Assembly: GCF_947623445.1 (NCBI RefSeq) | Contig: NC_135242.1 | Coordinates: forward strand, 23,746,001 to 23,810,000 | Direction: 5' to 3' | DNA length: 64,000 bases | Source of the DNA: Clavelina lepadiformis | Lineage: Eukaryota; Chordata; Ascidiacea; Aplousobranchia; Clavelinidae | Shown: in pieces, positions 21,501 through 64,000 of the stretch | Position numbering within the stretch: the stretch's first letter is position 1 | How the letters are laid out: every line of letters begins with the position of its first letter | Program-made: the position numbers and the translations under genes | The notes under the pieces: model-generated | What the model saw: the letters and a program-made list of their open reading frames with translations, nothing else | The model's database searches: none | Told to the model about the DNA's origin: nothing

Positions 21501-21804
21501 TTTCACATGATCTTCGTTTCGGCAATGGCACGTCTAACGCATTCTCTGAATCCATTACACCAGAAGATATACTGTCAACATCCATAGTTTGCGATTCACC
21601 GGTGCTTTGCGAGTCCAGGTGATGTTTGACGCTAGATGATGAACTCTTTTCTCCATGGTACCCACTGTCAACTGAATTTGCCGCATCTAGACTAGACTGC
21701 GTAACTTTTTGTTGAGAACTTGATGAGTTAGAAGGTTTATCTTTTGCAAAACGAGCCAGCCGGCGTTGGCGGATTTGTTCTGGTGTGAGCTCATTTTCAT
21801 TCAT
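18556..21804 (-). CDS. UBE4B: Ubiquitin conjugation factor E4 B (Ufd2 family, U-box), intronless coding sequence
   Basis: A 1082-aa uninterrupted frame. UBE4B/Ufd2 is a U-box E3/E4 ligase that extends ubiquitin chains with an E2 enzyme and works with the p97/VCP pathway. The N-terminus ([20 protein letters not shown]) matches the 'ELs.deIRrRRLArLa' start of UBE4B. Residues about 20-105 are Ser-rich and disordered, including [10 protein letters not shown], like the vertebrate 'SMDiDgvS' segment. Residues about 250-1000 form the Ufd2 core. The U-box is at about 1010-1080: [20 protein letters not shown], then [14 protein letters not shown], then DPFNRQEL. Vertebrate UBE4B is 1173-1302 aa, so this is slightly short in the N-terminal linker. 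Vertebrate orthologues have over 20 introns; none is needed here. The first 16 codons and the 5' flank are repeated in every unit of the downstream array. Confidence 0.96.
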
Positions 21805-23096
21805 ATTTCACCTAATTTGTACAAGTCCAAGCAGCTCAAAACAAATCTGTAAAATGTAATTACAAATTTTTCACAATTAATAGCTTATTTTTTAACTAAA
21901 ATTTCGATTGATTTGTTTTTTGTTCAGATTTTTCTACAAAATTAGCCAAAAAAAACGCATTCTCCTCATTCTATCACCAGCTTTGGCACACTGACTTTTT
22001 CAGTGTACAACTGCTCATCAAAATGTTTTTCTGCACACCCAAGATCTTGGTGAAAACTACCAGATTCTACAGTGCGGGAAAACTGGAGAACTAGGCTATA
22101 GCCTACTTCAAAGTCTCAAACTGACACTGGTGGTGGTAAGGTAATACCTAATACAAACATAGGGCGAGAATTGTCTACATGCAAACAATGCAATTGCCAT
22201 CCAACAGACAAAGAAAAACTACACCAAGCGTTTCTGGAATACAAATGCTTTGCAGAAACCGTCGTATTACAAATATGCTGTGCAATTTCCATGTATAAAT
22301 CATGCCAGAACCATTCATTGGACAAAGTTATAGCGCACAAAGCATTTTGCTTCATCATGTGGGGAATTTTTTTTGATATGTTGGCAACGGTTTTATATCA
22401 TATAACCCGGTTTATTAAACATAGTATTAAAAATTGTTTTTACAAGATTTTGTGAAAATTTTTGCTTTAGAAACGTTTCTGCTTATGCGAAATGCTAAAT
22501 TTGGAAGGATTTTTTTTTACATGTCAAAGTTTACCGATAATTGTAACGTAACTCGTACTTGCCAAACTTTTCTGACTGAAAGAGCTGACTGGGTTCCATG
22601 ATATTGTCTACGTAGAATGTAGATCGTTTCAGTTGCAATTTGTGTCGAGTGGTTCACATCTTTTAGATTTTGCCTTTGCGGTGCATAAAGAACAACAAGA
22701 AAAAAAACTTATTTAGTAACAAAGCATTAATTGCTAGTATTAATCAAACAAACTGGTCAAAGAATTTTTCAAATGTTTCAACAATGTTTCTCAACTTTTT
22801 CGCCTTATCTCATTCACCAGAAAAGAGTTGGATGTCACAGAATCACGATGTTAACATTTCGCTTGATTTAGTAAGGTAACTATCAAACGTTTCTGCTTGA
22901 TGGACTACTTTCATCAAAAGAAAGGTTATCGTAAAATAGTAGCTAAGTAAGCCAATTTCTGTAACTTGTTTCACACACGGTTTTAGACACTTCAAAGTGC
23001 GGTGTTTACCGTCAAATGGCACTATCCCTTTAAATTTTCGGATTTCTTGTCGCATTCCTCACATGTAATTATCATCATTGGGCGTGCTATGTAAAT
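21805..23096. other. UBE4B 5' flank and left spacer of unit A
   Basis: This holds the UBE4B 5' UTR/promoter and sequence repeated in all units. It includes a 14-bp perfect palindrome TAGGCTATAGCCTA at about 22093. Frames of 60-94 codons on both strands (for example + 22171-22455 and - 22116-22358) have no recognised motif. The plus frame is cut by a TGA in units B-F (TGTGCAATTT here, TGAGCAATTT there). No gene is called. Confidence 0.45.
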
Positions 23097-23615
23097 GAGG
23101 GTTAACGTATTTAATAATGCACAATCCCTGACAAATTTACCTCAGTTGCATTGACTAACTTTAGAATATTACCAAAGTACATTGCCGCCATTGCTTTTTT
23201 ATGATAAACACGAAACAATACAAAAACATCAAAGAAATGTTGTATTGCAATACACGAATGCAATTTTTCTTTTAAACAGTAACATTTATGAAAAAAAAAT
23301 TAGCACAAAGGTTTTACGAAATACGTTCCAACGTAATTACAAGCAACAGCATTAAGTCGAACCTTAATGTTGTTCATCTTAAAAGTTAGTCAACAACTTA
23401 CGTCATAAATGAGTTGCAGACTGTTTAAACGAGTTGAGAATGTTTGCGACCTAGAAAAAGTTGGAAAAAGTTGGCAACCTAAAAAAACTTGGAATAAAAT
23501 ACAATTTAAAAAAATTCCGGACTTTTAAGCACATTTTAGCATTTCTCCCTGACGCAAACTAGAATACAAAAATTTCCGGACATGTCAGGGAGAATCCTGA
23601 TGTATGGTAACTCTA
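23097..23615. mobile_element. hAT element, internally deleted copy (unit A)
   Basis: Flanked by the 8-bp direct repeat ATGTAAAT (23089-23096 and 23616-23623). The ends are GAGGGTTAACGTATTTAATA and, on the other strand, TAGAGTTACCATACATCAGG, a diverged form of TAGGGTTACCATA. The right part is homologous to the transposase-bearing part of the copies in units B-F, but only 519 bp remain. The same target site in every unit shows the insertion is older than the array. Confidence 0.75.
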
Positions 23616-23790
23616 ATGTAAATGCTTCTGCTCACCCAATGTGCCAGAAAGTGTTGTGATGCATTAGTTCGAATAAACATTTTAGTTTGTGATTTTACCC
23701 GACAGTTTGTCTGCAATTAGTGATAGCAGCGAAGGACATGTAGCCTTCATGGAAGGTAGGTCAAGCAAAGTTTTTTGATGCAGACACGTG

Positions 23791-23996
23791 ACCTACAAAT
23801 CAGAAATCGCTGCAACAACAACGATGAACGACTTGTCAGTGTTTTCTTTTTCATCAAACTCGAAAGCGCATCGCCGCAATTGCGTAAACTTAACTTACAA
23901 ATCAGAAATCGCTGCAAGTCCCAACAACGATGAGCGACTTGTCAGTTTTGCTTTCTCTTCTTCTCTTCTCGTATCGCCGCAATTGCGTAAACTTAA
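23791..23996. repeat. Tandem duplication of about 103 bp upstream of gene A
   Basis: Two adjacent units (23791-23892 and 23893-23996) share TACAAATCAGAAATCGCTGC at the start and CGCCGCAATTGCGTAAACTT at the end. Units D (48363-48575) and E (55634-55842) also have two; units B, C and F have one. Confidence 0.8.
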
Positions 23997-24440
23997 ATAA
24001 ACAACAATAAGATGTAAAACTCGGTTCTTAATAAAGTTTGATGATGAAGTTACTTTCTGATTGCGAGCGAATTAATTATTTCCATATACGTCATACGTCC
24101 TTTTGATGACACGCACGCGATGCAAGTGGTCGAATTAATGCGTAGTCTGCGGTTGCGATGACGTTTGTGGAAAGTCTTTGCTTGAAAACAAACAAGTGAC
24201 AACGTCAATGACGATGAACTGGAGTTTTTCACAACACAAACGTAACGTTCGCTGCAAATTTGTACGGTGATTGGCGCCTAAACTTCATCAATTCTTACTT
24301 TCTTTTTCCTCTCTCGGTGGTGGCGGTTCAGACGAAATACTTCCTCAAAAAGGTGTTTTTCTTAGGCAAAATAATTAAGGCAAAATGAAAATATTTTCGC
24401 GGTTGCATCACATTATTTCCAAAGAAGGCGTCAAGTCTGT

Positions 24441-24448
24441 TATATAAA
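24441..24448 (+). promoter_or_regulatory. TATA box of FReD gene A
   Basis: TATATAAA lies 46 bp before the start codon, followed by GAGCGCG. Transcription would start near 24470, giving a 5' UTR of only about 15-20 nt. The box is present with the same spacing at genes B-E. Confidence 0.7.
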
Positions 24449-24486
24449 GAGCGCGTATCCGTTGTGGACTTTATATCTCGAGATTC

Positions 24487-26103
24487 ATGAAAAGATCTTC
24501 AAAGTCAACAATGGAAAGAAGAATGATACTTTTGCTACTTGTAGTTTGTTACGTCACAATGACCTACTCGCAACAATGTCGTCAAGTCATGACTACTGTT
24601 TGTGATGATGAGGTCTCCAACTCCAGGATGCAGAAAGGAGACAAAGGTGATACCGGAAGATCAGGTAAAGCCGGAAGTCCGGAAGTCAACGGGGAAGTCG
24701 GAGAGAAGGGGATGCAAGGTGATTCGTGCGCTCTGGGGTCGCTTGGAACTGACATAATCTCCAGACTGGCAAGTAAGTTTATATGAGTTGAAAGTCGTTT
24801 TAACCGACTTCACTTTTAATGAGAAAAATCATTTCCAGAAATCGAGAAACTTCTTTCACCTCCCAGCACCACGACAACGACTACCACTATTGTTGCCACG
24901 ACATCAGCATCAAGAGTTACGTCATGTGCTACGTCATCAAGCAACGGAGACCAAGTTTTGACGAGTGGGGTTGAAGTTTATTGCGAGGATGGATGGACGG
25001 TGAGTGAAGATATTTTTACTGTTTGAAGAAAGTTTAAGATTTGAAACATTTTCGAACGTTAAAAAATGGAAATTTTATGTTTTATTACGTTATACTTAGT
25101 AATCAAAACCCCAAACTTTATTCTTTGAATTTCATTGCATGAGATAACTGAGTTTGCATCACTGTTAGCCAATGGTAACGAACGGTAGTTTTTTGACCAA
25201 CACTCGATTTGTAACAGGTTTTTCAAAGACGAATCGATGGAACTGTTAGTTTCCAACGAGGATGGGACGACTACGCGAACGGTTTTGGGCAGGTTGATGG
25301 GGAATTTTGGTTGGGTGAGTCGATTAAAAGTTGTTTCGAAAATATTTCTTACCTCAATGCAAACTGCTCAGGACTTCACAACATCCACGAGATGACGCGA
25401 GGAGGAGGATGCAGACTCAAGATAGAGCTGTGGGACTTCGATGGAAACCAACGTCACGCAAATTATAGGTTAAGTATTAGGCCTACTTCGATGTTGTAAC
25501 CTGCATCGTTGGTATTCGTCTGGAATTGTATTGAGTTCGATGAAACGAACGTAATCATATCCAAACTCATTTTTGTTTCAGTTCATTTTCTGTCGATTCT
25601 GCTGAAAAATCATATCGGCTTCTTATTTCCGGTTATAGCGGAAACGCTGGAGATGGTATGTCGTATCATAATAATAAACCATTTTCTGCGTGGGACAGGG
25701 ACAATGATTTGCAGTAAGCTTATTATTCTTTTCCTTTAATTATGATAAAATGTGACAAAAGATCTGCGTGTTATGTTATCTGTACATCGGTATGCTTCGA
25801 TGTGTTCCGTAACGATGTAACGTTTCCATGTAACCGAGCTTTCATGGATGAGGTCACAGTTCTTAGCTTTTTTTTCAAAAGACATTAAATTTTTTTGTTG
25901 TTAACAGTCGTACACTTAACTGCGCATCACACTATGGCGGAAATCAAGGTTGGTGGTTTGGAGATTGTCTCGCCAGCAGTTCTGCATTGAACGGTGTATG
26001 GATGCGCGAATCAACAGGAACAGCTCATGGCGTCGTCTGGGAACTTTGGAAAGGTTGGCACGAGCCACTAAAGGCCACCAACATGAAATTTCGTTGTGAT
26101 TAA
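24487..26103 (+). CDS. Ficolin-like secreted fibrinogen-domain protein, copy A (6 exons, 322 aa)
   Basis: Exons 24487-24772, 24839-24999, 25218-25314, 25372-25468, 25582-25713, 25908-26103; all GT-AG, all in phase. Signal peptide about residues 1-28 (hydrophobic MILLLLVVCYV, likely cut before QQC). Residues 51-79 are about ten Gly-X-Y triplets broken once by EVN. A Thr-rich linker (STTTTTTTIVATTS) follows. The fibrinogen domain starts near SCATSSS: VEVYCEDGWTVFQRRIDG, GFGQVDGEFWLG, ELWDFDGN, GNAGDGMSYHNNKPFS, the calcium-loop-like DRDNDLHRTLNCA, GGNQGWWFGDCL, and WKGWHEPLKATNMKFRC. Ficolins are oligomeric lectins binding acetylated sugars in innate immunity; this role is inferred. The first subdomain is shortened and extra Cys occur (GGGC, C-terminal RC). 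AATAAA at 26228-26233. This copy has VYC and ELWDF. Confidence 0.9.
25315..25371 (+). other. 57-bp in-frame, stop-free intron 3 of FReD gene A (possible exitron)
   Basis: It starts GTGAGT and ends GCTCAG. Its removal restores the family sequence GEFWLG-LHNIHEMT. Its length is a multiple of three and it has no stop, so retention would add 19 residues including two cysteines. The same sequence is kept in copies B-E (33101, 41445, 49896, 57162). Confidence 0.7.
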
Positions 26104-26233
26104 ACAAAACACAATCGGTTTAATGCCATGTGATGTATATATAGAATAAGCATACCAAACGCAAGTAAATCAACAACTTGTATTGCATCAATAACTATAA
26201 CTGATATCAAGTTTTTGTGGCGCTTGTAATAAA

Positions 26234-28309
26234 TCAGTGTTCTTTGCAATGTAATACTCTTTGAAAAGGCAAATATATCAAGCGTTTTCATTGTCATTCG
26301 CACTGTTCTGTCAAAAGCAATTAAGTTTTATAAGCAAGAGAATATATCCGTGGTTATACTATGCAGGCGGAAGACGCACAAGTCAATTAACGGTTGAGAA
26401 AGCACTTCTCAATTTATATAAAACCAATAACATAAAGCCAATACATGGGACCGAATCCCATCAGAGTATTCCGGAGAAATTTGGCCCGGAACGAGCAGAC
26501 AGTAGTGATTGGTTGCTGCAGGAGAGAGCTGTAATTCGAGTAATGGCGCCCATGTTCAAGAATCATAGCCCAGTATCAATCATACCGTACATACCATTAA
26601 CGCGTACATTATTATCGTTTATTGGAAGATATTGTTGAGATTATAACAATTCTTATAAAGTAAAACCAGCTATCTAATTCCATTCAGCGGTGCAAGTTCG
26701 TTAAGTAAACCAGCAGTTGCATTTTATCAAGTGTAGAGCAGGAAATTAGCTATGAAATTAGTGGTAGTTCGTTCACTTGCCTGAGAACTATATTGGAATG
26801 TGTGCGATAGGGAAAACCAATTTTTCAAGTGCACGGAACTAAACGTGAAACAGCATTGGTCTTGAATGTTCAGTATTCATTTACACATTTGTATCTGATT
26901 ACTCCGAAGACCATTGACCGATTCTCATAATTTAATCATACCAGGTTGTGAGTGAATAATCATGCAGTTTGTTTTGTACTGAAAGACATACTACCATATT
27001 ATACAGTAGCAACCGTGCTGCTTACACGATCTGCTCTGAGAAAATATGCGGGGGACGCTAATTGCCACTTAGGTCCTAGGGGTAGCGATGTAAGACGTCA
27101 AAAGAGATAGACTAAAAATCTATGTACATATGAATAGGTAAAGAAATGCGGCAGCACGTGAGCAAACATTAGAAAATCTGACGAGCATACATACGAATAA
27201 TACAATGCACAGCGTAAATAAAAACAGAAGTTGACGCACACATTGGACTAAATTAACCTACAAGAGTGGTGCGAACAAACAGTGTAAAATGTGAACAATT
27301 GACTCCCTAATTGGGTAATTAAAATGCAGTCTATCTAAAACAGGTGACAACTCACACCGTAAACAAGTGACTCACAAATTTGATGACGTAATGTTAAAAT
27401 GTGTTGGTTCTAGAACGGGTTTGTGAAAAATATTCTCGTGACATCTCCCCCAGGTCCAATACTTTTCCGTCCGTGTTATATAACATTTCCTTTCGTATTT
27501 TCTTCCATATAATATTCCATAACGACCTGTAGAAATGTTTGATATCGTAAGTTATGTCAGTACTTATTACAACGTAACCTTTGTAGTCTGTAGTAAGTCG
27601 TTTTTCCTGTTGCAAATATAAAGCTTTCCTTAAACTTGATTGAAATTTTGTTCATGCAATGTGCTATTAATATTACATTGGCGCTTAATGCAATATTTAA
27701 TTCATCGGTGACTCTCTTGTGATGCTCGTCACGTGGTGGTGTAGGTACCACATTGGCAAAAGTGCATTCAAGCGACTGTTTGGTAGCTTTGTTCGCCTCG
27801 GCATGTAAACAGTCAAGTCAGAATGGTTCGTAAATACACCGCCAATGTACCGCCAATTACGAAGATATTTCGGGAAGAAATACTAGGAAAGGATTTGGTC
27901 GTGTCAGTCGAGTATTTAGCCAGAGATGGAACGCAATTAGGTATAGTGTAAAGAGACAAAATTATGGCGCGTTATCAGCCATTTTTTTTCGGTGCATCCG
28001 CATATCCAGTAAAATTAAATCAGAAGGTTTTCCAAATTTTACGCATTGGCTTCTTGCTTTAATTATCTTACAACTGATAATAACAAAAAACATTAGATTA
28101 ACAGATGAACAAAAACTCTTGGGATTTCAGTATAATTCGTAACTTTCAGATCAGTTGGAGTCCGATAAGCCTGTCAGTTATATACTGTACAATGTACATA
28201 AAGACCATAAAACTGCCTTTTTTATTGTAGCATCCATATATTGTAACGCGATCGTTTAAAAAAGTCTGGCACATGAACAAACTCCATACACGTACAGCGG
28301 CCGCACATA
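26234..28309. other. 3' spacer of unit A, no gene recognised
   Basis: It holds frames of 125 codons (+ 26261-26638) and 64-73 codons (minus, 27394-27751) that persist in all copies. Because the copies are nearly identical, that persistence is not evidence of coding. A 42-codon frame starting MVRKYTANVPPITK lies at about 27823-27951. None has a recognised motif. The unit ends in GCGGCCGC-containing sequence at the junction with unit B. Equivalent spacers follow genes B-E. Confidence 0.45.
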
Positions 28310-28357
28310 CAGCCGGCGTTGGCGGATTTGTTCTGGTGTGAGCTCATTTTCATTCAT
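28310..28357 (-). pseudogene. UBE4B 5' fragment (16 codons plus 5' flank), unit B
   Basis: The minus strand from 28357 reads the first 16 codons of UBE4B without change ([16 protein letters not shown]), then leaves the gene into spacer sequence. The frame stays open for about 17 more codons to a TAA. Plus-strand sequence right of 28357 matches the UBE4B 5' flank, so each unit carries an orphan UBE4B promoter copy. The same is seen at 36654-36701 (unit C) and 44998-45045 (unit D). Confidence 0.85.
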
Positions 28358-29912
28358 ATTTCACCTAATTTGTCCCAAGTCCAAGCAGCTTAAAACAAAT
28401 CTGTAAAATGGAATAAAAATTTTTCAAAATAAATAGCTTATTTTTGACGAAAAGTTTGTTTGATTTTGATTGATTTGTTTTTTTGTTCGTATTTTTCTAC
28501 TAAAATTAGCTTTAAAAAAACGCATTCTCCTCATGCTATTACCAGCTTTGGCACACTGACTTTTTCAGTGTACAGCTGCTCAACAAACTCTTTTTCTGCA
28601 CACCCAAAATCTTGGTGAAAACTGCCAGATTCTGCAATGTGGGAAAACTGGAGAACTAGGCTATAGCCTACCGCAAATCCCAAACTGACACTGGTGGTGG
28701 TAAGGTAATACCTAATACAAACATAAGCCAAGCATTGTCTACATGCAAACAATGCAACTGCCATCCAACAGACAAAGAAAAACTACACCAAGCGTTTCTC
28801 GAATACAAATGCTTTGCAGAAACTGTCGTATTACAAATATGCTGAGCAATTTCCATGTATAAATCATGCCAGAACCATTCATTGGACAAAGTTATAGCGC
28901 ACAAAGCGTTTTTCTTCATCATGTGGGGAATTTTTTTTGATATGTTGGCAACGGTTTTATATCATATAACCCGGTTTATTAAAGATGGTATTAAAAATTA
29001 TTTTTTGCAAATTTTTGAGAAAATTTCTGCTTTAGAAACGCTTATGCGAAATGCTAAGCTCGGAAGGATTTTTTTATATGCCAAAGCTTACCGACAATTG
29101 TAACGTAACTCGTACTTCCCAAACTTTTTTGACTGAAAGAGCTGACTGGGTTCCATGATATTGTCTGTGTAGATCGTTTCGGTTGCAATTTGTGTCGAGT
29201 AGTTCACATCTTTTAGTTTTTGCCTTTGCGGTCCATAAAGAGGAAGAATAACAAGTAAAAAACTTGTGTAGTAACAAAGTATTATTTGCCAATATTAATC
29301 AAACAAACTGGTCGAAGAATTTTGAAAATTTCGCCGTATCTAATTCACCAGAAAAGAGCTTGATGTCACAAAATCACGATCTGTAACATGTCGCTTGTTC
29401 AGTAAGGTAACTGGCACACGCTCCTGCATGATGGACTACTTTTCATCAAAAGAAAGGTTATGGTAAAAAATTAGCTTTTTTAAACCACTTTCTGTAACTC
29501 TACTCATGCGCGGTTGCAGACATTTCAGGCTGGCGTTGAGCGTCATATGGCACTATCCCTTTAAATTATCAGATTTCTCAGCGCATTCCTCACATATAAT
29601 TATCATCATTGGGCGTGCTATGTAAATTAGGGTTACCATATTTGATAATGCGCAATCCCTGACAAATTTACCTCAGTTGCATTGATTAACTTTAGACTAT
29701 TACCAAAGTACATTGCCGCCATTGCATTTTTATGATAAACACGAAACAATACAAAAACAGCAAAGAATTGTTGCACTGCAATACACGAATGCAAGTTTTC
29801 TTTTAAACAGTAACATTTATGAAAACGAAAATTAGCACAGAATTTTTATGAAATACGCTCTAAGGTAATTACAAGTAATGAACGTATAGCAGTTTATAAA
29901 TGATACTCTACT

Positions 29913-30851
29913 TAGGGTTGCCATACGTCCGGATTTCCCCGGACATGTCCGGAATTTTAGTGTTCAAAGTGCGTCCGGGGGGAAATGCTAAAATATGCTT
30001 AAATGTCCGGAATTTCACCCCATTCGTCTACTTTCCGCCCATTAAAATGGTCCAGAGTACGGGAATTTCTTCCCATGGTAATGGTTGAAAGTATGCCTTT
30101 CTAACCCTAGAGTAAGATATATGCCTTTGGAATGGGGAGAATTTTACTTCGGCACAAGTATGGTTTGTGAACGCCATTAGTCTATTTTTCCGCCCATTAA
30201 AATGGACCTGCTTTCAGCAACGGGGTTTCCCACAAACGATATTTCTGCCGAAGTAAACATCTCCCCATTCCAAATGCACATTTCTTACTCTATAGTCAGA
30301 AAGGCATACTTCCTGCCATTCGAATGGGAAAATATTACCGCATTTCCACCCGCATTTCCATTTTAATTGGCGGAGAGCAGACGAATCGGGTGGGAATTTT
30401 TTTAAATTGTTTGTTGCGTTACGGGTAATAATTTAATTGTTACGTCATAAAGGACAATACAGCGCTGTATTTGGAATACAATGATCATGGATGAGTGGAG
30501 CTGGGCTAGTAGCTGAAGGCCTTATATCTTGGTCGATATTGCAAAATTTAGAACATGTCTGAAACGATAAGATACGATATTCGCTGAAAAAAATTATAAA
30601 GCAGTGAAAGTAGTAGAAAAATAGCTCAACAAGAAGTCTGTTGCAGACCAAATTAGAATACCAAGGAAATTGTCGTTTGTTTAATTCTTAATGATTTCGA
30701 AGTGGGCCGCGGGTTTTGTTCGCACCGTCAAGGTGGGGCATTGCTAGTGTGACGTCATATTGACAGACAATGTGTTCATAACTCATTTTAAAAACCGCTA
30801 GTGGGCACCAAAGAGTGTCGGGATTTTAGGCCCCGAAAATATGGTAACCCT
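29913..30851. mobile_element. 939-bp hAT-type MITE nested in the hAT element, unit B
   Basis: Flanked by ACTCTACT on both sides (29905-29912 and 30852-30859). The ends are TAGGGTTGCCATACGTCCGG and, on the other strand, AGGGTTACCATATTTTCGGG, related to the ends of the host hAT. The empty site is preserved in unit E (ACTCTACTCTCCCTCAT near 54811). Copies also lie at 38257-39195 (C), 46602-47542 (D, left end altered) and 61728-62666 (F). The 68-codon frame 30445-30651 within it is not a gene. Confidence 0.75.
30016..30392. mobile_element. 377-bp foldback MITE nested in the 939-bp MITE, unit B
   Basis: Most of the element is a long inverted repeat. The ends are CACCCCATTCGTCTACTTTC and, on the other strand, CACCCGATTCGTCTGCTCTC. 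Inner arms include CTTTGGAATGGGGAGAATTT against its complement near 30265. GGAATTT flanks both sides (30009-30015 and 30393-30399). Copies lie at 38360-38736, 46707-47083 and 61831-62207; a fragment is at 1436-1500. Confidence 0.7.
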
Positions 30852-32226
30852 ACTCTACTCCCCCTCATACCAATCGTTCTTTTCCGAAGATCTGATTGTT
30901 TTTTTCAACAAGCTCTTGTTGGACTTCAAAAACACATAAAATTTCCCACAAGACATGCTTTTGAAGTTGTACTGAAGTGTTAAAATGTCTTTCATTGTTT
31001 CAATGATCATCTTATTTCTTTCTTTTTTCCACTAAACCCGCATCAGTGAAAACACCCGCTTAACATTTCCGTTGTATGGCGCCACAACAAAGAAAAACTG
31101 GGCAACCCTTAGTAATTCTGAGTGACATTCAGCGTTTTTTGACTTTTGAAAATACCTGCACCATTTATTATGTGTTGGCAGTGCAGTAAATTCTTCGTCA
31201 CTGATGTAACATTCCAAAACGACTTCAATGACTAGAATAAGCCAAACCTTAACGCTGTTCATCTTAAAAGGTAGTAAACAACTTACGTCATAAACGAGTT
31301 GCAGACTGTTTTGACGAGCTGAGAATGTTTGCAACCTAGAAAAAGCTGGCAACCTAGAAAAACTTGGAATAAAATACAATTTAAAAAAATTCCGGACTTT
31401 TAGGCACATTTTACCATTTCTCCCTGACGCAGATTAGAACACAAAAATTTTATGACAAGTCAGGGAAAATCCTGACGTATGGTAATCCTAATGTAAATGC
31501 TTCTGCTGATTGCTCACCCAATGTGCCAGAAAGTGTTGTGAAGCATTAGTTCGAATAAACATTTTAGTTTGTGATTTTACCCTACAGTTTGTCTGCAATT
31601 AGTGATAGCAGAGAAGGACATGTAGCCTTCATGGAAGGTAGGTCAAGCAGAGTTAGTTGATGCAGACACTTAACTTACAAATCAGAAATCGCTGCAAGTC
31701 CCAACAACGATGAGCGGACTTGTCAGTTTTGCTTTGCTTTCTCTTCTTCTCTTCTCGTATCGCCGCAATTGCGTAAACTTAAATAAACAACAATAAGATG
31801 TAAAACTCGGTTCTTAATAAAGATTGATGATGAACTTGCTTCCTGGTTGCGAACGAGCTAATTATTTCCATATACGTCATACGTCCTTTTGATGACACGC
31901 ACGCGATGCAAGTGGTCGAATTAATGCGTAGTCTGCGGTTGCGATGACGTTTGTGGAAATTCTTTGCTTGAAAACAAACAAGTGACAACGTCAATGACGA
32001 TGAACTGGAGTTTTTCACAACACAAACGTAACGTTCGCTGCAAATTTGTACGGTGATTGGCGCCTAAACTTCATCAATTCTTACTTTCTTTTTCCTCTCT
32101 CGGTGGTGGCGGTTCAGACGAAATACTTCCTCAAAAAGGTGTTTTTCTTAGGCAAAATAATTAAGGTAAAATGAAAATATTTTCGCGGTTGCATCACATT
32201 ATTTCCAAAGAAGGCGTCAAGTCTGT

Positions 32227-32234
32227 TATATAAA
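32227..32234 (+). promoter_or_regulatory. TATA box of FReD gene B
   Basis: TATATAAA, 46 bp before the start codon, as in copy A. Confidence 0.7.
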
Positions 32235-52905: not shown

Positions 52906-54176
52906 ATTTCACCTAATTTGTCCCAAGTCCAAGCAGCTTAAAACAAATCTGTAAAATGGAATAAAAATTTTTCAAAATAAATAGCTTATTTTTGACGAAA
53001 AGTTTATTTGATTTTGATTGATTCGTTTTTTTGTTCGTATTTTTCTACTAAAATTAGCCTTAAAAAAACGCATTCTCCTCATGCTATTACCAGCTTTGGC
53101 ACACTGACTTTTTCAGTGTACAGCTGCTCAACAAACTCTTTTTCTGCACACCCAAAATCTTGGTGAAAACTGCCAGATTCTGCAATGTGGGAAAACTGGA
53201 GAACTAGGCTATAGCCTACCGCAAATCCCAAACTGACACTGGTGGTGGTAAGGTAATACCTAATACAAACATAAGCCAAGCATTGTCTACATGCAAACAA
53301 TGCAACTGCCATCCAACAGACAAAGAAAAACTACACCAAGCGTTTCTCGAATACAAATGCTTTGCAGAAACTGTCGTATTACAAATATGCTGAGCAATTT
53401 CCATGTATAAACCTTGCCAGAACCATTCATTGGACAAAGTTATAACGCACAAAGCATTTTGCTTCATTATGCAGGGAATTTTTTTTGATATGTTGGCAAC
53501 GGTTTTATATCATATAACCCGGTTTATTAATGATGGTATTAAAAATTATTTTCTGCAAATTTTTGAGAAAATTTCTGCTTTAGAAACGCTTATGCGAAAT
53601 GCTAAGCTCGGAAGGATTTTTTTATATGCCAAAGCTTACCGACAATTGTAACGTAACTCGTACTTGCCAAACTTTTCTGACTGAAAGAGCTGACTGGGTT
53701 CCATGATATTGTCTACGTAGATCGTTTCAGTTGCAATTTGTGTCGAGTAGTTCACATCTTTTAGTTTTTGCCTTTGCGGTCCATAAAGAGGAAGAATAAC
53801 AAGTAAAAAACTTGTGTAGTAACAAAGTATTATTTGCCAATATTAATCAAACAAACTGGTCGAAGAATTTTGAAAATTTCGCCGTATCGAATTCACCAGA
53901 AAAGAGCTTGATGTCACAAAATCACGATCTGTAACATGTCGCTTGTTCAGTAAGGTAACTGGCACACGCTCCTGCATGATGGACTACTTTTCATCAAAAC
54001 AAAGGTTATGGTAAAAAAATTAGCTTTTTTAAACCACTTTCTGTAACTCTACTCATGCGCGGTTGCAGACATTTCAGGCTGGCATTGAGCGTCATATGGC
54101 ACTATCCCTTTAAATTATCAGATTTCTCAGCGCATTCCTCACATATAATTATCATCATTGGGCGTGCTATGTAAAT

Positions 54177-55451
54177 TAGGGTTAACATATTTGATAATGC
54201 GCAATCCCTGACAAATTTACCTCAGTTGCATTGATTAACTTTAGACTATTACCAAAGTACATTGCCGCCATTGCTTTTTTGTGATAAACATGAAACAATG
54301 CAGAAACAGCAAAGAAGTGTTGCACTGCAATGCACGAATGCCAGTTTTCTTTTAAACAGTAACATTTATGAAAACGAAAATTAGCACAGAATTTTTATGA
54401 AATACACTCTAAGGCAGGGGTTCCTAACCTTTTTATGTTCTCGTACCACTTAGCCACCACGGATTGTCAACACGTACCACTATTTTCAAAACAACTAATT
54501 TTATCCAATATTCGCACAGCAGCATTGTATTAATAACAATGACAGCAGGGAGCAAGATCGACAAAAGTAGCTTACTGAGTGAAGAGAATTTAGTACGGAA
54601 AGAAATAAAAGTGTTGTTCGCATATTTTAGCAACTCAAAATTGAATTGTTATAGGCCTACTACTATACTGTATATCGCATGCAACGGAAAGCTGCTCGCG
54701 TACCACCTAAAAAGCTCCCGCGTATCACTAGTGGTACGCGTACCACCGGTTGGGAACCCCTGCTCTAAGGTAATTACAAGTAATGAACGTATAGCAGTTT
54801 ATAAATGATACTCTACTCTCCCTCATAGGCTACCAATCGTTCTTTTCCGAAGATCTGATTTTTTTTCAACAAGCTCTTGTTGGACTTCAAAAACACATAA
54901 AATTTCCCACAAGACATGCTTTTGAAGTTGTACTGAAGTGTTAAAATGTCTTTCATTGTTTCAATGGTCATCTTATTTCTTTCTTTTGTCCACTGACCCC
55001 GCATCAGTGAAAACACCCGCTTAACATTTCCGTTGTGTGGCGCCACAACAAAGAAAAACTGGGCAACACTTAGTAATTCTGAGTGACATTCAGCGTTTTT
55101 TGACTTTTGAAAATACCTGCACCATTTATTATGTGTTGGCAGTGCAGTAAATTCTTCGTCACTGATGTAACATTCCAAAACGACTTCAATGACTAGAATA
55201 AGCCAAACCTTAACGCTGTTCATCTTAAAAGGTAGTAAACAACTTACGTCATAAACGAGTTGCAGACTGTTTTGACGAGCTGAGAATGTTTGCAACCTAG
55301 AAAAAGCTGGCAACCTAGAAAAACTTGGAATAAAATACAATTTAAAAAAATTCCGGACTTTTAGGCACATTTTACCATTTCTCCCTGACGCAGATTAGAA
55401 CACAAAAATTTTATGACAAGTCAGGGAAAATCCTGACGTATGGTAATCCTA
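54177..55451 (-). mobile_element. hAT relic without the 939-bp MITE, unit E
   Basis: ATGTAAAT flanks at 54169-54176 and 55452-55459. It keeps the empty target of the 939-bp MITE near 54811. The minus frame 55370-54813 (185 codons) covers the hAT transposase C-terminus, including RVFSLMRGQWTKERNKM and ILTLQYNFKS. Confidence 0.75.
54415..54762. mobile_element. 348-bp hAT-type MITE, unique to unit E
   Basis: 8-bp duplication CTCTAAGG at 54407-54414 and 54763-54770. The ends are CAGGGGTTCCTAACC and, on the other strand, CAGGGGTTCCCAACC, the classic hAT end. CGTACCAC motifs recur near both ends. The 114-codon frame over it is not a gene. Confidence 0.85.
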
Positions 55452-56046
55452 ATGTAAATGCTTCTGCTGATTGCTCACCCAATGTGCCAGAAAGTGTTGT
55501 GATGCATTAGTTCGAATAAACATTTTAGTTTGTGATTTTACCCTACAGTTTGTCTGCAATTAGTGATAGCAGAGAAGGACATGTAGCCTTCATGGAAGGT
55601 AGGTCAAGCAGAGTTAGTTGATGCAGACACGTGACTTACAAATCAGAAATCGCTGCAAGTCCCAACAACGATGAGCGACTTGTCAGTGTTTTCTTTTTCA
55701 TCAAACTGGAAAGCGCATCGCCGCAATTGCGTAAACTTAACTTACAAATCAGAAATCGCTGCAAGTCCCAACAACGATGAGCGACTTGTCAGTTTTGCTT
55801 TCTCTTCTTCTCTTCTCGTATCGCCGCAATTGCGTAAACTTAAACAAACAACAATAAGATGTAAAACTCGGTTCTTAATAAAGATTGATGATGAACTTGC
55901 TTCCTGGTTGCGAACGAGCTAATTGTTTCCATATACGTCATACGTTCTTTTGATGACACGCACGCGATGCAAGTGGTCGAATTAATGCGTAGTCTGCGGT
56001 TGCGATGACGTTTGTGGAAAGTCTTTGCTTGAAAACAAACAAGTGA

Positions 56047-56054
56047 TGACGTCA
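56047..56054. promoter_or_regulatory. Perfect CRE-like palindrome TGACGTCA upstream of gene E
   Basis: Copies A-D read GACAACGTCAATG or GATAACGTCAATG at this spot; copy E reads GATGACGTCAATA, creating the ATF/CREB consensus 280 bp before the start codon. Function is inferred only from the consensus. Confidence 0.4.
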
Positions 56055-56287
56055 ATAATGATGAGCTGGAGTTTTTCACAACACAAACGTAACGTTCGCT
56101 GCAAATTTGTACGGTGTTTGGCGCCTAAACTTCATCAATTCTTACTTTCTTTTTCCTCTCTCGGTGGTGGCGGTTCAGACGAAATACTTCCTCAAAAAGG
56201 TGTTTTTCTTAGGCAAAATAATTAAGGTAAAATGAAAATATTTTCGCGGTTGCATCACATTATTTCCAAAGAAGGCGTCAAGTCTGT

Positions 56288-56295
56288 TATATAAA
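56288..56295 (+). promoter_or_regulatory. TATA box of FReD gene E
   Basis: TATATAAA, 46 bp before the start codon. Confidence 0.7.
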
Positions 56296-56333
56296 GAGCG
56301 CGTATCCGTTGTGGACTTTATATCTCGAGATTC

Positions 56334-57950
56334 ATGAAAAGATCTTCAAAGTCAACAATGGAAAGAAGAATGATACTTTTGCTACTTGTAGTTTGTTACG
56401 TCACAATGACCTACTCGCAACAATGTCGTCAAGTCATGACTACTGTTTGTGATGATGAGGTCTCCAACTCCAGGATGCAGAAAGGAGACAAAGGTGATAC
56501 CGGAAGATCAGGTAAAGCCGGAAGTCCGGAAGTCAACGGGGAAGTCGGAGAGAAGGGGATGCAAGGTGATTCGTGCGCTCTGGGGTCGCTAGGGACCGAC
56601 ATAATCTCCAGACTGGCAAGTGAGTTTATATGAGTTGAAAGTCGTTTTAACCGACTTCACTTTTATTGAGAAAAATCATTTCCAGAAATCGAGAAACTTC
56701 TTTCACCTCCCAGCACCACGACAACGACTACCACTATTGTTGCCACGACATCAGCATCAAGAGTTACGTCATGTGCTACGTCATCAAGCAACGGAGACCA
56801 AGTTTTGACGAGTGGGGTTGAAGTTTGTTGCGAGGATGGATGGACGGTGAGTGAAGATATTTTTACTGTTTGAAGAAAGTTTAAGATTTGAAACATTTTC
56901 GAACGTTAAAAAATGGAAATTTTATGTTTTATTACGTTATACTTAGTAATCAAAACCCCAAACTTTATTCTTTGAATTTCATTGCATGAGATAACTGAGT
57001 TTGCATCACTGTTAGCCAATGGTAACGAACGGTAGTTTTTTGACCAACACTCGATTTGTCACAGGTTTTTCAAAGACGAATCGATGGAACTGTTAGTTTC
57101 CAACGAGGATGGGACGACTACGCGAACGGTTTTGGGCAGGTTGATGGGGAATTTTGGCTGGGTGAGTCGATTAAAAGTTGTTTCGAAAATATTTCTTACC
57201 TCAATGCAAACTGCTCAGGACTTCACAACATCCACGAAATGACGCGAGGAGGAGGATGCAGACTCAAGATAGAGCTGAGGGACTTCGATGGAAAACAACG
57301 TCACGCAAATTATAGGTTAAGTATTAGGCCTACTTCGATGTTGTAACCTGCATCGTTGGTATTCGTCTGGAATTGTATTGAGTTCGATGAAACGAACGTA
57401 ATCATATCCAAACTCATTTTTGTTTCAGTTCATTTTCTGTCGATTCTGCTGAAAAATCATATCAGCTTCTTATTTCCGGTTATAGCGGAAACGCTGGAGA
57501 TGGTATGTCGTATCATAATAATAAACCATTTTCTGCGTGGGACAGGGACAATGATTTGCAGTAAGCTAATTATTCTTTTCCTTTAATTATGATAAAATGT
57601 GACAAAAGATCTGCGTGTTATGTTATCTGTACATCGGTATGCTTCGATGTGTTTCGTAACGATGTAACGTTTCCATGTAACCGAGCTTTCATGGATGAGG
57701 TCACATTTCTTAGCTTTTTTTTCAAAGGACATTAAATTTTTTTGTTGTTAACAGTCGTACACTTAACTGCGCATCACACTATGGCGGAAATCAAGGTTGG
57801 TGGTTTGGAGATTGTCTCGCCAGCAGTTCTGCATTGAACGGTGTATGGATGCGCGAATCAACAGGAACAGCTCATGGCGTCGTCTGGGAAGTTTGGAAAG
57901 GTTGGCACGAGCCACTTAAAGCCACCAACATGAAATTTCGTTGTGATTAA
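56334..57950 (+). CDS. Ficolin-like fibrinogen-domain protein, copy E (6 exons, 322 aa), mosaic
   Basis: Exons 56334-56619, 56686-56846, 57065-57161, 57219-57315, 57429-57560, 57755-57950, all in phase, no stop. From the end of exon 1 to exon 4 it carries the B/C variants (silent CTAGGGACC, VEVCC, ELRDF). It has its own change DFDGKQ for DFDGNQ. From intron 4 onward it carries the D variants (SYQLL, WEVW). AATAAA at 58075-58080. It is therefore a recombinant allele type, and the protein it predicts differs from A and from B/C. Domain content and likely secretion are as for copy A. Confidence 0.9.
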
Positions 57951-60146
57951 ACAAAACACAATCGGTTTAATGCCATGTGATGTATATATGGAATAAGCAT
58001 ACCAAACGCAAGTAAATCAACAACTTGTATTGCATCAATAACTATAATTGATATCAAGTTTTTGTGGCGCTTGTAATAAATCAGTGTTCTTTGCGATGTA
58101 ATACTCTTTGAAAAGGCAAATATATCAACCGTTTTCATTGTCATTCGCACTGTTCTGTCAAAAGCAATTAAGTTTTATAAGCAAGAGAATATATCCGTGG
58201 TTATACTATGCAGGCAGAAGACGCCCAAGTCAATTAACGGTTGAGAAAGCACTTCTCAATTTATATAAAACCAATAACATAAAGCCAATACATGGGACCG
58301 AATCCCATCAGAGTATTCCGGAGAAATTTGGCCCGGAACGAGCAGACAGTAGTGATTGGTTGCTGCAGGAGAGAGCTGTAATTCGAGTAATGGCCCCCAT
58401 GTTCAAGAATCATAGCCCAATATCAATCATACCGTACATACCATTAACGCGTACATTATTATCGTTTATTGGAAGATATTGTTGAGATTATAACAATTCT
58501 TATAACGTAACACCAGCTATCTAGTTCCATTCAGCGGTGCAAGTTCGTTAAGTAAACCAGCAGTTGCATTTTATCAAGTGTAGAGCAGGAAATTAGCTAT
58601 GAAATTAGTGGTAGTTCGTTCACTTGCCTGAGAACTATATTGGAAATTGGAATGTATGCGATATGGAAAACCAATTTTTCAAGTGCACGGAACTAAACGT
58701 GAAACAGCATTGGTCTTGAATGTTCAGTATTGATTTACACATTTGTATCTGATTACTCCGAAGACCATTGACCGATTCTCATAATTTAATCATACCAGGT
58801 TGTGAGTGAATAATCATGCAGTTTGTTTTGTACTGAAAGACATACTACCATATTATACAGTAGCAACCGTGCTGCTTACACGATCTGCTCTGAGAAAATA
58901 TGCGGGGGACGCTAATTGCCACTTAGGTCCTAGGGGTAGCGATGTAAGACGTCAAAAGAGATAGACTAAAAATCTATGTACATATGAATAGGTAAAGAAA
59001 TGCGGCAGCACGTGAGCAAACATTAGAAAATCTGACGAGCATACATACGAATAATACAATGCACAGCGTAAATAAAAACAGAAGTTGACGCACACATTGG
59101 ACTAAATTAACCTACAAGAGTGGTGCGAACGAACAGTGTAAAATGTGAACAATTGACTCCCTAATTGGGTAATTAAAATGCAGTCTATCTAAAACAGGTG
59201 ACAACTCACACCGTAAACAAGTGACTCGCAAATTTGATGACGTAATGTTAAAATGTGTTGGTTCTAGAACGGGTTTGTGAAAAATATTCTCGTGACATCT
59301 CCCCCAGGTCCAATACTATTCCGTCCGTGTTATATAACATTTCCTTTCGTATTTTCTTCCATATAATATTCCATAACGACCTGTAGAAATGTTTGATATC
59401 GTAAGTTATGTCAGTACTTATTACAACGTAACCTTTGTAGTCTGTAGTAAGTCGTTTTTCATGTTGCAAATATAAAGCTTTCCTTAAACTTGATTGAAAT
59501 TTTGTTCATGCAATGTGCTATTAATATTACATTGGCGCTTAATGCAATATTTAATTCATCGGTGACTCTCTTGTGATGCTCGTCACGTGGTGGTGTAGGT
59601 ACCACATTGGCAAAAGTGTATTCAAGCGACTGTTTGGTAGCTTTGTTCGCCTCGGCATGTAAACAGTCAAGTCAGAATGGTTCGTAAATAGACCGCCAAT
59701 GTACCGCCAATTACGAAGATATTTCGGGAAGAAATACTAGGAAAGGATTTGGTCGTGTCAGTCGAGTATTTAGCCAGAGATGGAACGCAATTAGGTATAG
59801 TGTAAAGAGACAAAATTATGGCGCGTTATCAGCCATTTTTTTCGGTGCATCCGCATATCCAGTAAAATTAAATCAGAAGGTTTTCCAAATTTTACGCATT
59901 GGCTTCTTGCTTTAATTATCTTACAACTGATAATAACAAAAAACATTAGATTAACAGATGAACAAAAACTCTTGGGATTTCAGTATAATTCGTAACTTTC
60001 AGATCAGTTGGAGTCCGATAAGCCTGTCAGTTATATACTGTACAATGTACATAAAGACCATAAAACTGCCTTTTTTATTGTAGCATCCATATATTGTAAC
60101 GCGATCGTTTAAAAAAGTCTGGCACATGAACAAACTCCATACACGT

Positions 60147-63100
60147 CTGGTGTGAGCTCATTTTCATTCATATTTCACCTAATTTGTCCCAAGTCCAAGC
60201 AGCTTAAAACAAATCTGTAAAATGGAATAAAAATTTTTCAAAATAAATAGCTTATTTTTGACGAAAAGTTTATTTGATTTTGATTGATTCGTTTTTTTGT
60301 TCGTATTTTTCTACTAAAATTAGCCTTAAAAAAACGCATTCTCCTCATGCTATTACCAGCTTTGGCACACTGACTTTTTCAGTGTACAGCTGCTCAACAA
60401 ACTCTTTTTCTGCACACCCAAAATCTTGGTGAAAACTGCCAGATTCTGCAATGTGGGAAAACTGGAGAACTAGGCTATAGCCTACCGCAAATCCCAAACT
60501 GACACTGGTGGTGGTAAGGTAATACCTAATACAAACATAAGCCAAGCATTGTCTACATGCAAACAATGCAACTGCCATCCAACAGACAAAGAAAAACTAC
60601 ACCAAGCGTTTCTCGAATACAAATGCTTTGCAGAAACTGTCGTATTACAAATATGCTGAGCAATTTCCATGTATAAACCTTGCCAGAACCATTCATTGGA
60701 CAAAGTTATAACGCACAAAGCATTTTGCTTCATTATGCAGGGAATTTTTTTTGATATGTTGGCAACGGTTTTATATCATATAACCCGGTTTATTAATGAT
60801 GGTATTAAAAATTATTTTCTGCAAATTTTTGAGAAAATTTCTGCTTTAGAAACGCTTATGCGAAATGCTAAGCTCGGAAGGATTTTTTTATATGCCAAAG
60901 CTTACCGACAATTGTAACGTAACTCGTACTTGCCAAACTTTTCTGACTGAAAGAGCTGACTGGGTTCCATGATATTGTCTACGTAGATCGTTTCAGTTGC
61001 AATTTGTGTCGAGTAGTTCACATCTTTTAGTTTTTGCCTTTGCGGTCCATAAAGAGGAAGAATAACAAGTAAAAAACTTGTGTAGTAACAAAGTATTATT
61101 TGCCAATATTAATCAAACAAACTGGTCGAAGAATTTTGAAAATTTCGCCGTATCGAATTCACCAGAAAAGAGCTTGATGTCACAAAATCACGATCTGTAA
61201 CATGTCGCTTGTTCAGTAAGGTAACTGGCACACGCTCCTGCATGATGGACTACTTTTCATCAAAACAAAGGTTATGGTAAAAAAATTAGCTTTTTTAAAC
61301 CACTTTCTGTAACTCTACTCATGCGCGGTTGCAGACATTTCAGGCTGGCGTTGAGCGTCATATGGCACTATCCCTTTAAATTATCAGATTTCTCAGCGCA
61401 TTCCTCACATATAATTATCATCATTGGGCGTGCTATGTAAATTAGGGTTACCATATTTGATAATGCGCAATCCCTGACAAATTTACCTCAGTTGCATTGA
61501 TTAACTTTAGACTATTACCAAAGTACATTGCCGCCATTGCATTTTTATGATAAACACGAAACAATACAAAAACAGCAAAGAATTGTTGCACTGCAATACA
61601 CGAATGCAAGTTTTCTTTTAAACAGTAACATTTATGAAAACGAAAATTAGCACAGAATTTTTATGAAATACGCTCTAAGGTAATTACAAGTAATGAACGT
61701 ATAGCAGTTTATAAATGATACTCTACTTAGGGTTGCCATACGTCCGGATTTCCCCGGACATGTCCGGAATTTTAGTGTTCAAAGTGCGTCCGGGGGGAAA
61801 TGCTAAAATATGCTTAAATGTCCGGAATTTCACCCCATTCGTCTACTTTCCGCCCATTAAAATGGTCCAGAGTACGGGAATTTCTTCCCATGGTAATGGT
61901 TGAAAGTATGCCTTTCTAACCCTAGAGTAAGATATATGCCTTTGGAATGGGGAGAATTTTACTTCGGCACAAGTATGGTTTGTGAACGCCATTAGTCTAT
62001 TTTTCCGCCCATTAAAATGGACCTGCTTTCAGCAACGGGGTTTCCCACAAACGATATTTCTGCCGAAGTAAACATCTCCCCATTCCAAATGCACATTTCT
62101 TACTCTATAGTCAGAAAGGCATACTTCCTGCCATTCGAATGGGAAAATATTACCGCATTTCCACCCGCATTTCCATTTTAATTGGCGGAGAGCAGACGAA
62201 TCGGGTGGGAATTTTTTTAAATTGTTTGTTGCGTTACGGGTAATAATTTAATTGTTACGTCATAAAGGACAATACAGCGCTGTATTTGGAATACAATGAT
62301 CATGGATGAGTGGAGCTGGGCTAGTAGCTGAAGGCCTTATATCTTGGTCGATATTGCAAAATTTAGAACATGTCTGAAACGATAAGATACGATATTCGCT
62401 GAAAAAAATTATAAAGCAGTGAAAGTAGTAGAAAAATAGCTCAACAAGAAGTCTGTTGCAGACCAAATTAGAATACCAAGGAAATTGTCGTTTGTTTAAT
62501 TCTTAATGATTTCGAAGTGGGCCGCGGGTTTTGTTCGCACCGTCAAGGTGGGGCATTGCTAGTGTGACGTCATATTGACAGACAATGTGTTCATAACTCA
62601 TTTTAAAAACCGCTAGTGGGCACCAAAGAGTGTCGGGATTTTAGGCCCCGAAAATATGGTAACCCTACTCTACTCCCCCTCATACCAATCGTTCTTTTCC
62701 GAAGATCTGATTGTTTTTTTCAACAAGCTCTTGTTGGACTTCAAAAACACATAAAATTTCCCACAAGACATGCTTTTGAAGTTGTACTGAAGTGTTAAAA
62801 TGTCTTTCATTGTTTCAATGATCATCTTATTTCTTTCTTTTTTCCACTAAACCCGCATCAGTGAAAACACCCGCTTAACATTTCCGTTGTATGGCGCCAC
62901 AACAAAGAAAAACTGGGCAACCCTTAGTAATTCTGAGTGACATTCAGCGTTTTTTGACTTTTGAAAATACCTGCACCATTTATTATGTGTTGGCAGTGCA
63001 GTAAATTCTTCGTCACTGATGTAACATTCCAAAACGACTTCAATGACTAGAATAAGCCAAACCTTAACGCTGTTCATCTTAAAAGGTAGTAAACAACTTA

Positions 63101-64000
63101 CGTCATAAACGAGTTGCAGACTGTTTTGACGAGCTGAGAATGTTTGCAACCTAGAAAAAGCTGGCAACCTAGAAAAACTTGGAATAAAATACAATTTAAA
63201 AAAATTCCGGACTTTTAGGCACATTTTACCATTTCTCCCTGACGCAGATTAGAACACAAAAATTTTATGACAAGTCAGGGAAAATCCTGACGTATGGTAA
63301 TCCTAATGTAAATGCTTCTGCTGATTGCTCACCCAATGTGCCAGAAAGTGTTGTGAAGCATTAGTTCGAATAAACATTTTAGTTTGTGATTTTACCCTAC
63401 AGTTTGTCTGCAATTAGTGATAGCAGAGAAGGACATGTAGCCTTCATGGAAGGTAGGTCAAGCAGAGTTAGTTGATGCAGACACTTAACTTACAAATCAG
63501 AAATCGCTGCAAGTCCCAACAACGATGAGCGGACTTGTCAGTTTTGCTTTGCTTTCTCTTCTTCTCTTCTCGTATCGCCGCAATTGCGTAAACTTAAATA
63601 AACAACAATAAGATGTAAAACTCGGTTCTTAATAAAGATTGATGATGAACTTGCTTCCTGGTTGCGAACGAGCTAATTATTTCCATATACGTCATACGTC
63701 CTTTTGATGACACGCACGCGATGCAAGTGGTCGAATTAATGCGTAGTCTGCGGTTGCGATGACGTTTGTGGAAATTCTTTGCTTGAAAACAAACAAGTGA
63801 CAACGTCAATGACGATGAACTGGAGTTTTTCACAACACAAACGTAACGTTCGCTGCAAATTTGTACGGTGATTGGCGCCTAAACTTCATCAATTCTTACT
63901 TTCTTTTTCCTCTCTCGGTGGTGGCGGTTCAGACGAAATACTTCCTCAAAAAGGTGTTTTTCTTAGGCAAAATAATTAAGGTAAAATGAAAATATTTTCG
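60147..64000 (+). repeat. Array unit F, cut by the window end
   Basis: UBE4B 8-codon fragment 60147-60171, left spacer like unit E, hAT 61443-63305 with nested MITEs like units B/C, single 103-bp repeat. By the spacing in unit B, the start codon of FReD gene F should lie at about 64088, just outside. No coding exon is in the window. Confidence 0.85.
61443..63305 (-). mobile_element. hAT relic with nested 939-bp and 377-bp MITEs, unit F
   Basis: Same borders and length (1863 bp) as in units B and C, ATGTAAAT at 61435-61442 and 63306-63313. Nested elements at 61728-62666 and 61831-62207. Transposase remnant on the minus frame 63224-62847. Confidence 0.75.

Follow-up and report, generated by a model that had tools for sequence, protein, structure and literature searches.

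How does a run of ficolin-like genes come to start inside UBE4B, and what history do its copies record? We addressed this question in the ascidian Clavelina lepadiformis, in a window of 64,000 nucleotides on chromosome 3 (C3; NC_135242.1, positions 23,746,001 to 23,810,000), numbered here from its first base. The locus is, in our judgement, likely to be a tandem sub-array of ficolin-like lectin genes that formed recently within a large ascidian cluster of fibrinogen-domain genes, with a history of duplication, patching and exon 1 exchange.

Units of the array and their UBE4B border

Tandem units of 6.55–8.34 kb, measured as distances between repeat starts, adjoin UBE4B on C3 and follow one another head to tail. 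Self-alignment gave direct repeats spanning 21757–64000 at 86.4–99.6% identity (matches longer than 250 bp), with 28098–40126 matching 36442–48469 at 99.6%, and thus recovered the tandem array proposed in the initial annotation. All units are on the forward strand: U1 (21757..28309, 6553 bp), which starts inside UBE4B, U2 (28310..36653, 8344 bp), U3 (36654..44997, 8344 bp), U4 (44998..52879, 7882 bp), U5 (52880..60145, 7266 bp) and U6 (60146..67891, 7746 bp), half of which lies beyond the window (60146..64000 being inside). The earlier count of six units holds in that there are six near-identical gene copies, but only five of these are in the window, the sixth starting at 64112, and a seventh, terminal and divergent unit (U7) begins at window coordinate 67892, outside the window.

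The units differ in their inserts and upstream DNA. A 1.36-kb insert, at 29879..31238 in U2 and with a palindromic element inside it (30016–30392), is also present in U3, U4 and U6 and partly in U5, and is absent from U1 and U7. A hAT-like protein in the insert, suggested by its letters alone, was considered and set aside; Pfam gave no family for 47479–48123 or 54813–55394. A second insert, of 553 bp (35889..36441), occurs in U2 and U3 only and has related copies elsewhere on C3; at its site, the insert-free units show a 5-bp overlap of the flanks, which looks like a target-site duplication. The upstream DNA of U1 (class I) and that of U7 are 98% alike, and both are 86–88% identical to U2–U6.

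At the left border of the array, UBE4B, a housekeeping gene, is encoded on the reverse strand in a single frame of 1082 amino acids (18556..21804), with Pfam matches to Ufd2P_core (2e-206) and U-box (1.5e-27). Remnants beginning at the UBE4B ATG, likewise on the reverse strand, are found in the later units. Sixteen codons are kept in U2 (28310..28357), U3 (36654..36701) and U4 (44998..45045), and eight in U5 (52882..52905), U6 (60148..60171) and U7; the frame stays open for 33 codons in the U2 remnant and for 20 in that of U5. Units were originally said to start at UBE4B codon 8–16; they do so at either codon 16 or codon 8, and the stubs confirm a breakpoint inside UBE4B. When the genome was searched as DNA with the UBE4B-5′ segment of U2, the best 40 of 118 candidates comprised seven long matches, all at the array and one of them UBE4B itself, and 33 that covered only a ~250-bp repeat at the distal end of that segment. 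We therefore rejected the idea that the segment is a dispersed element, since among these 40 it matches only in the array beyond its last ~250 bp.

The ficolin-like gene and its copies

The fibrinogen-domain gene is complete, with six exons and GT-AG introns, and the copy in U1 occupies 24511..26103 on the forward strand (exons 24511–24772, 24839–24999, 25218–25314, 25372–25468, 25582–25713 and 25908–26103). The TATA box attributed to each gene (24441..24448, forward strand, in U1; TATATAAA) precedes all six copies with identical sequence. The frame has 322 residues, or 314 from its second ATG (M9), which we take as the start. The first ATG was rejected because a TAG was found in 34 of the 40 exon 1 matches outside the six copies that start at query residues 1–5; a search from M9 gave 91 of 97 rows without a stop. 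Given that some of the first-ATG matches run into the intron, seven cluster genes, including that of U7, were also read directly. All seven have an ATG at M9, and four have an in-frame stop at most two codons before it; none stands so near in U7, G24252 or G24092.

The protein consists of a hydrophobic start, a short collagen-like stretch and a fibrinogen domain, with two cysteines after the hydrophobic N-terminus when the translation is read by eye. It was annotated as ficolin-like, and the domain searches bear this out: Pfam Fibrinogen_C (PF00147) matches at 7.6e-51 and the best solved-structure match is human ficolin-2 (2.7e-41). The Pfam Collagen match, at 19.9 bits, is below the cut-off of 27.2, over nine G-X-Y triplets with one break. 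The DxDND loop is kept, DRDND aligning with DQDND of ficolin-2, and both late cysteines align as well; we take these to be the calcium loop and the late disulphide of the ficolin domain. Ficolins bind acetylated sugars and MASP. The C. lepadiformis protein is probably secreted and probably an immune, sugar-binding protein; its targets would be acetylated sugars on microbes, and it would assemble by means of its N-terminal cysteines together with the collagen-like stretch.

The copies, all on the forward strand, are not equally intact. The U2 gene (32297..33889) carries Y143C and W202R, and the U3 gene (40641..42233) has the same coding sequence; both changes are common to U2, U3, U5 and U6 and absent from seven other cluster genes read. 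The U4 gene (49092..50684) has a TGA stop at 49491–49493 in exon 2, where a second search also gave TGA, and is probably a pseudogene. With these two replacements in four of the six copies and a stop in another, the array may be partly decaying. The U5 gene (56358..57950) is of U2 type through exon 4 and of U4 type from exon 5. Between 24744 and 25431 (U1 coordinates), nine of 16 variable columns group U4 with U1 and U5 with U2, U3 and U6, the other seven being private to one copy, while between 25617 and 26378, 13 of 14 group U5 with U4. These single-base differences show that the units have been patched from one another, by gene conversion or unequal crossing-over.

The mosaic end gene and the chromosome 3 cluster

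The gene of U7 is a mosaic with its joint inside exon 1: the upstream DNA and signal-peptide region are those of the array, and the fibrinogen gene body that follows is much more divergent and collagen-less. In steps of 100 columns, U7 is 89–100% identical to U1 up to ~24565 and 44–81% identical thereafter, introns included. Compared like for like, exons 1–4 of U1 are 62–92% identical to those of six other cluster genes (78–92% without exon 1 of G939), and those of U7 are 54–87% identical to the same six and 64–85% identical to U1, indicating that U7 combines an outsider body with upstream DNA of the array. Local matches of unequal length suggested that this body has closer relatives among the other cluster genes than in the array, but this was not upheld by the exon-by-exon comparison; no donor was found, the array being as near to the body, exon by exon, as any of the other genes read. 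Positive selection on exons alone was discarded as the cause, since the introns are equally diverged and ~2.8 kb of upstream DNA is not. A somewhat unlikely alternative is that the body of U7 is native to the array, old and unusually fast-evolving, with its upstream DNA kept U1-like by gene conversion. This would fit the ten-gene tree, in which U7 has a long branch attached at an open fork, and its roughly equal distance from all genes read; however, its introns are as divergent as its exons, and in exons 2–4 U1 resembles genes elsewhere in the cluster more closely than it does U7.

Of the 91 merged exon 1 loci found, 58 lie in C3:23.07–25.12 Mb, and the array is a recent sub-array inside this much larger cluster of fibrinogen-domain genes. 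Given that it is a small part of ~2 Mb, UBE4B, which the initial annotation placed at the left border, does border this sub-array but not the gene family. Among the papers listed, mainly open-access and judged by titles and abstract openings, none describes the cluster. Neither tandem arrays of fibrinogen genes nor ascidian ficolins are new in kind; what is unusual about the locus is the UBE4B stub carried by every later unit, together with the mosaic gene at its end. Ficolins of Halocynthia roretzi, Botryllus schlosseri and Botrylloides leachii and ficolin-like proteins of Ciona are described as combining a collagen-like stretch with a fibrinogen domain, as the protein here probably does, in an ascidian host (PMC5465252, PMC11312191), unlike which there is here a six-copy array with UBE4B stubs; a tree legend in PMC11312191, which is not a census, has two ficolin-like proteins of Ciona against the 58 exon 1 loci here. 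In the sea cucumber Apostichopus japonicus, fibrinogen-domain genes have also expanded in tandem, with 21 of them clustered on a single scaffold, but excerpts of their description link them to regeneration and mention no collagen class or neighbour-gene stub (PMC5638244). The fibrinogen-domain FREPs of the snail Biomphalaria glabrata are reported as immune proteins that owe their diversity to gene conversion and point mutation, and differ in having immunoglobulin domains and in that variants were recovered within a single snail (PMC7588048).

C. lepadiformis is a colonial hermaphrodite, which would suit genes for self/non-self recognition, at fertilisation or colony contact, rather than for defence; we consider such a role, like that of v-Themis in Ciona, unlikely. 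The v-Themis proteins are also ascidian and fibrinogen-like, multi-allelic, and encoded with s-Themis-B in a pair whose copy number is reported to vary between individuals (PMC7018956). However, they are described as located on the vitelline coat and encoded in the first intron of polycystin-1-like s-Themis genes (PMC7018956), and no such partner was recognised by Pfam in the 8 of 102 window ORFs scanned; the probable collagen-like stretch of the array genes is, moreover, as in ficolins.

Copy number, proposed history and significance

U2 and U3 are 100% identical across 8344 bp, so that the copy number may be wrong if the assembler erred. That the array is partly an assembly artefact with fewer or more true units, U2 and U3 being one unit drawn twice or a longer run collapsed, is nevertheless quite improbable. 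After shearing, the DNA fragments used for the genome averaged 12–20 kb (PMC10884593), and few reads would therefore cover both units. Against an artefact, U1, U4, U5, U6 and U7 are each distinguished by private differences or inserts, there are no Ns within the 258 kb read, and the assembly is reported with 117-fold HiFi coverage, a QV of 67.4 and removal of haplotypic duplications (PMC10884593).

On the reading of a young sub-array, a duplication would have had its left break at UBE4B codon 16 and its right break ~2.2 kb past the fibrinogen-domain gene, leaving UBE4B whole at the left and a stub wherever later units meet. The codon 8 form of the stub would have arisen when 38 bp were lost from the junction, and unequal crossing-over and gene conversion would then have multiplied and patched the units. 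At the right end, an exchange broken inside exon 1 would have joined the upstream DNA and signal-peptide region to the divergent body. The order and direction of these events are what we infer from the copies.

The stubs are taken here as passengers; that they are working leftward promoters, regulating the array through antisense RNA into the preceding gene or a peptide of 20 or 33 residues, is very unlikely, for although each keeps the ATG and ~0.7 kb of upstream DNA (92.7–94.3% identical to the UBE4B copy) with a short open frame of 33 or 20 codons, and the one measured, in U2, points towards the 3′ end of the gene before it, ~2.2 kb away, the upstream DNA of U2–U6 has drifted further out to ~87% of the UBE4B copy and recent duplication alone accounts for identical stubs.

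The stubs provide a clean marker for each later unit, so that PCR or read depth could readily give the copy number across natural populations. A broader, speculative and rather unlikely view is that the C3 cluster is a recombining lectin repertoire with exon 1 (promoter and signal-peptide region) as the exchange point, where crossovers cap collagen-bearing or collagen-less fibrinogen bodies with a shared control cassette, the UBE4B-derived one being a single spreading cap. If this were true, individuals would differ in copy number and in combinations, which might have a role in recognition. With ~58 or more ficolin-like loci and visible patchwork, the cluster would be well suited to studying how germline lectin repertoires expand and are shuffled.

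Array layout and UBE4B stubs

The genome searched comprised 209,060,895 bases, of which 25,734,561 belong to chromosome 3 (C3), where the window spans 23746001-23810000; the genome note for the ascidian Clavelina lepadiformis gives a span of 210.1 Mb, with 25.74 Mb for chromosome 3 (PMC10884593). UBE4B occupies one open frame on the minus strand (18556-21804), carrying Ufd2P_core and U-box domains (Pfam). In self-alignment, repeat units U1-U6 extend rightward starting at the 16th UBE4B codon, and a seventh unit (U7) starts at window coordinate 67892, beyond the window. At the start of each unit after U1, a stub of UBE4B is retained: its ATG and 16 codons in U2-U4, where the frame is open for 33 codons, and its ATG and 8 codons in U5-U7, where it is open for 20. 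Match coordinates put the difference between these two junction forms at 38 bp. The ficolin-like tandem array beside UBE4B reported in the initial annotation is borne out. Most simply, the stubs are passengers of the breakpoint. A genome search with the UBE4B-5' segment of U2 returned at least 40 matches (40 of 118 first-look candidates scored); among the matches listed, 7 were long, all at the array locus, and 33 corresponded to a ~250 bp repeat in the segment's distal part.

A WD40-repeat frame of 359 codons (16858-17937), presumably DPH7-like, adjoins the 3' end of UBE4B. Further left, direct repeats ~91% identical pair 2004-2698 with 4644-5369 and 3735-4401 with 5369-6035; the frames 890-1183 and 2229-2612 matched no Pfam family.

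The array gene and its copies

The array gene has 6 exons with GT-AG introns and a frame of 322 residues, or 314 counted from the second ATG. The latter is our preferred candidate start codon because all seven further cluster genes examined, among them U7, have it, because an in-frame stop lies at most 2 codons before it in four of the seven, and because U7 lacks the first ATG. A TATATAAA box lies upstream of all six array copies, and U7 has TACATAAA at that position. The protein starts with a hydrophobic segment and two early cysteines; next come nine Gly-X-Y triplets, interrupted once (Pfam Collagen score under cut-off), a linker rich in Thr and a fibrinogen domain (Pfam 7.6e-51). Its top solved-structure matches were human ficolin-2, FIBCD1 and ficolin-1.

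The coding sequences of U2, U3 and U6 are identical, and U1 differs from U2 by 7 nucleotides and 2 residues, Y143C and W202R, both changes being common to U2, U3, U5 and U6. U4 contains a stop at residue 120 (TGA at 49491) and is probably dead. Residue 202 is W in all seven other cluster genes read, including U7; at residue 143, six of them have Y and U7 has F. Thus, among the six near-identical copies, U1 is the ordinary one and four have changed. The replacements may or may not harm the protein; in structure-match alignments, the position of W202 is occupied by E in human FIBCD1 and by V in human ficolin-2.

The stretch that begins 480 bp ahead of the first ATG and ends ~2 kb beyond the gene has 111 alignment columns at which U1-U6 differ, gap columns counted. 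Within columns 24744-25431, 9 of 16 variable columns group U4 and U1 against U5, U2, U3 and U6, while each of the other 7 is unique to a single copy; within 25617-26378, 13 of 14 group U5 with U4. A single column (25570) separates U2, U3 and U6 across 24007-26488, past which U6 has many private differences. Judged from the alignment, these groupings point to units having exchanged sequence by gene conversion or unequal crossing-over. The upstream DNA falls into two classes, U1 with U7 (98.1% identical over U2 positions 701-1318) and U2-U6, the latter 86.1-87.6% identical to the former. Over the 678 bp adjoining the UBE4B ATG, U7 is 98.2% identical to U2 and 94.3% to U1. A 1.36-kb insert is present in U2-U4 and U6, partly in U5, and absent from U1 and U7; a 553-bp insert is common to U2 and U3. 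Within the 1.36-kb insert lies a palindromic element (30016-30392, plus copies), which matches its own copies at ~71% in opposite orientation.

The mosaic end gene

Aligned in 100-column steps, U1 and U7 are 89-100% identical from 21779 to ~24565, a stretch that takes in the stub, upstream DNA, 5' leader and signal-peptide region. Past ~24565, identity is 44-81%, in introns as in exons, and the U7 body has no run of collagen triplets. Across the 258-kb region and ten other loci that were compared (L001-L008, L029, L030), the U1 5'-flank matched the seven units only.

A closer kinship of the U7 body with cluster genes outside the array than with the array itself was not borne out by exon-by-exon comparison, in which U7 was about equidistant from U1 and from six such genes (exon 2, 64% to U1 and 54-64% to the six; exon 4, 85% and 84-87%). 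Across exons 2-4, these six genes are nearer to U1 than U7 is; U1 exon 3 is 83-88% identical to them versus 69% to U7. The U7 body therefore diverged before the split between the array body and cluster genes lying elsewhere. Because this early-split body nonetheless carries the array's upstream DNA, an exchange that broke within exon 1 would best explain U7. A ten-gene tree places U7 on a long branch at an open fork. With U7 exon 1 as query, four C3 loci outside the array (57-61% identity, E-values of 3e-23 to 4e-22) ranked just ahead of the array copies (59%, 6e-22); one of the four, the cluster gene G939 (C3:23938937), also lacks a collagen run. To the right of the mosaic gene, a putative mobile-element remnant with a CENP-B-like start was seen by eye at L010:5200-7560 (about window 73200-75560).

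The wider cluster and possible function

The 87-residue exon 1 of the array gene had at least 97 matches in the genome (128 candidates, all scored). Merging matches within 1 kb left at least 91 loci, at least 62 of them on C3 and at least 58 within C3:23.07-25.12 Mb, the array's seven counted; for this large family, these counts are lower bounds. Some of the 91 loci are weak (E up to 4e-4) and 6 of the 97 matches contain a stop; pseudogenes may be among the loci. The C3:23.07-25.12 Mb loci form long single-orientation runs in the chromosome's last 2.7 Mb. On the C3 minus strand, the exon-1 search also outlined a putative second tandem array, with two exon-1 types occurring three times each (one at 23397860, 23415973 and 23434308, the other at 23405209, 23423485 and 23441784) at a period of 18.1-18.3 kb. 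In pairwise comparison of eight cluster genes, G939 and G24258 are 90% identical in exons 3-6 and 72-82% before, while G24252 and G24258 are 93% identical in exons 1-4 and 76-88% after, steps that indicate block changes elsewhere in the cluster also. No description of the C3 cluster appeared among the papers that our literature search listed.

Fibrinogen_C had at least 170 matches in the genome (150 of 521 candidates scored), with other groups on C2, C4, C5, C6 and C9. In those at C5:22.46-24.39 Mb, C9:12.92-13.27 Mb and C2:21.85-24.73 Mb, many domains are encoded within one open frame of ~230-266 codons (392 in one case) and so apparently lack introns, in contrast to the array genes with their six exons.

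In ascidians, ficolins have been described as haemocyte components of the lectin pathway (PMC5465252). One account traces collagen-bearing ficolins to urochordates, with loss of collagen in cephalochordates, although its introduction names amphioxus too (PMC11312191). By resemblance to ascidian ficolins, the array proteins would be secreted oligomeric lectins. The main functional rival is that the array genes act in gamete or colony recognition, for which v-Themis offers a precedent (PMC7018956). The expanding immune locus proposed in the initial annotation is plausible but unproven. Tandem gene arrays of this kind are already known; the unusual features here are the housekeeping-gene stub that every later unit carries and the mosaic end gene, within a large cluster.
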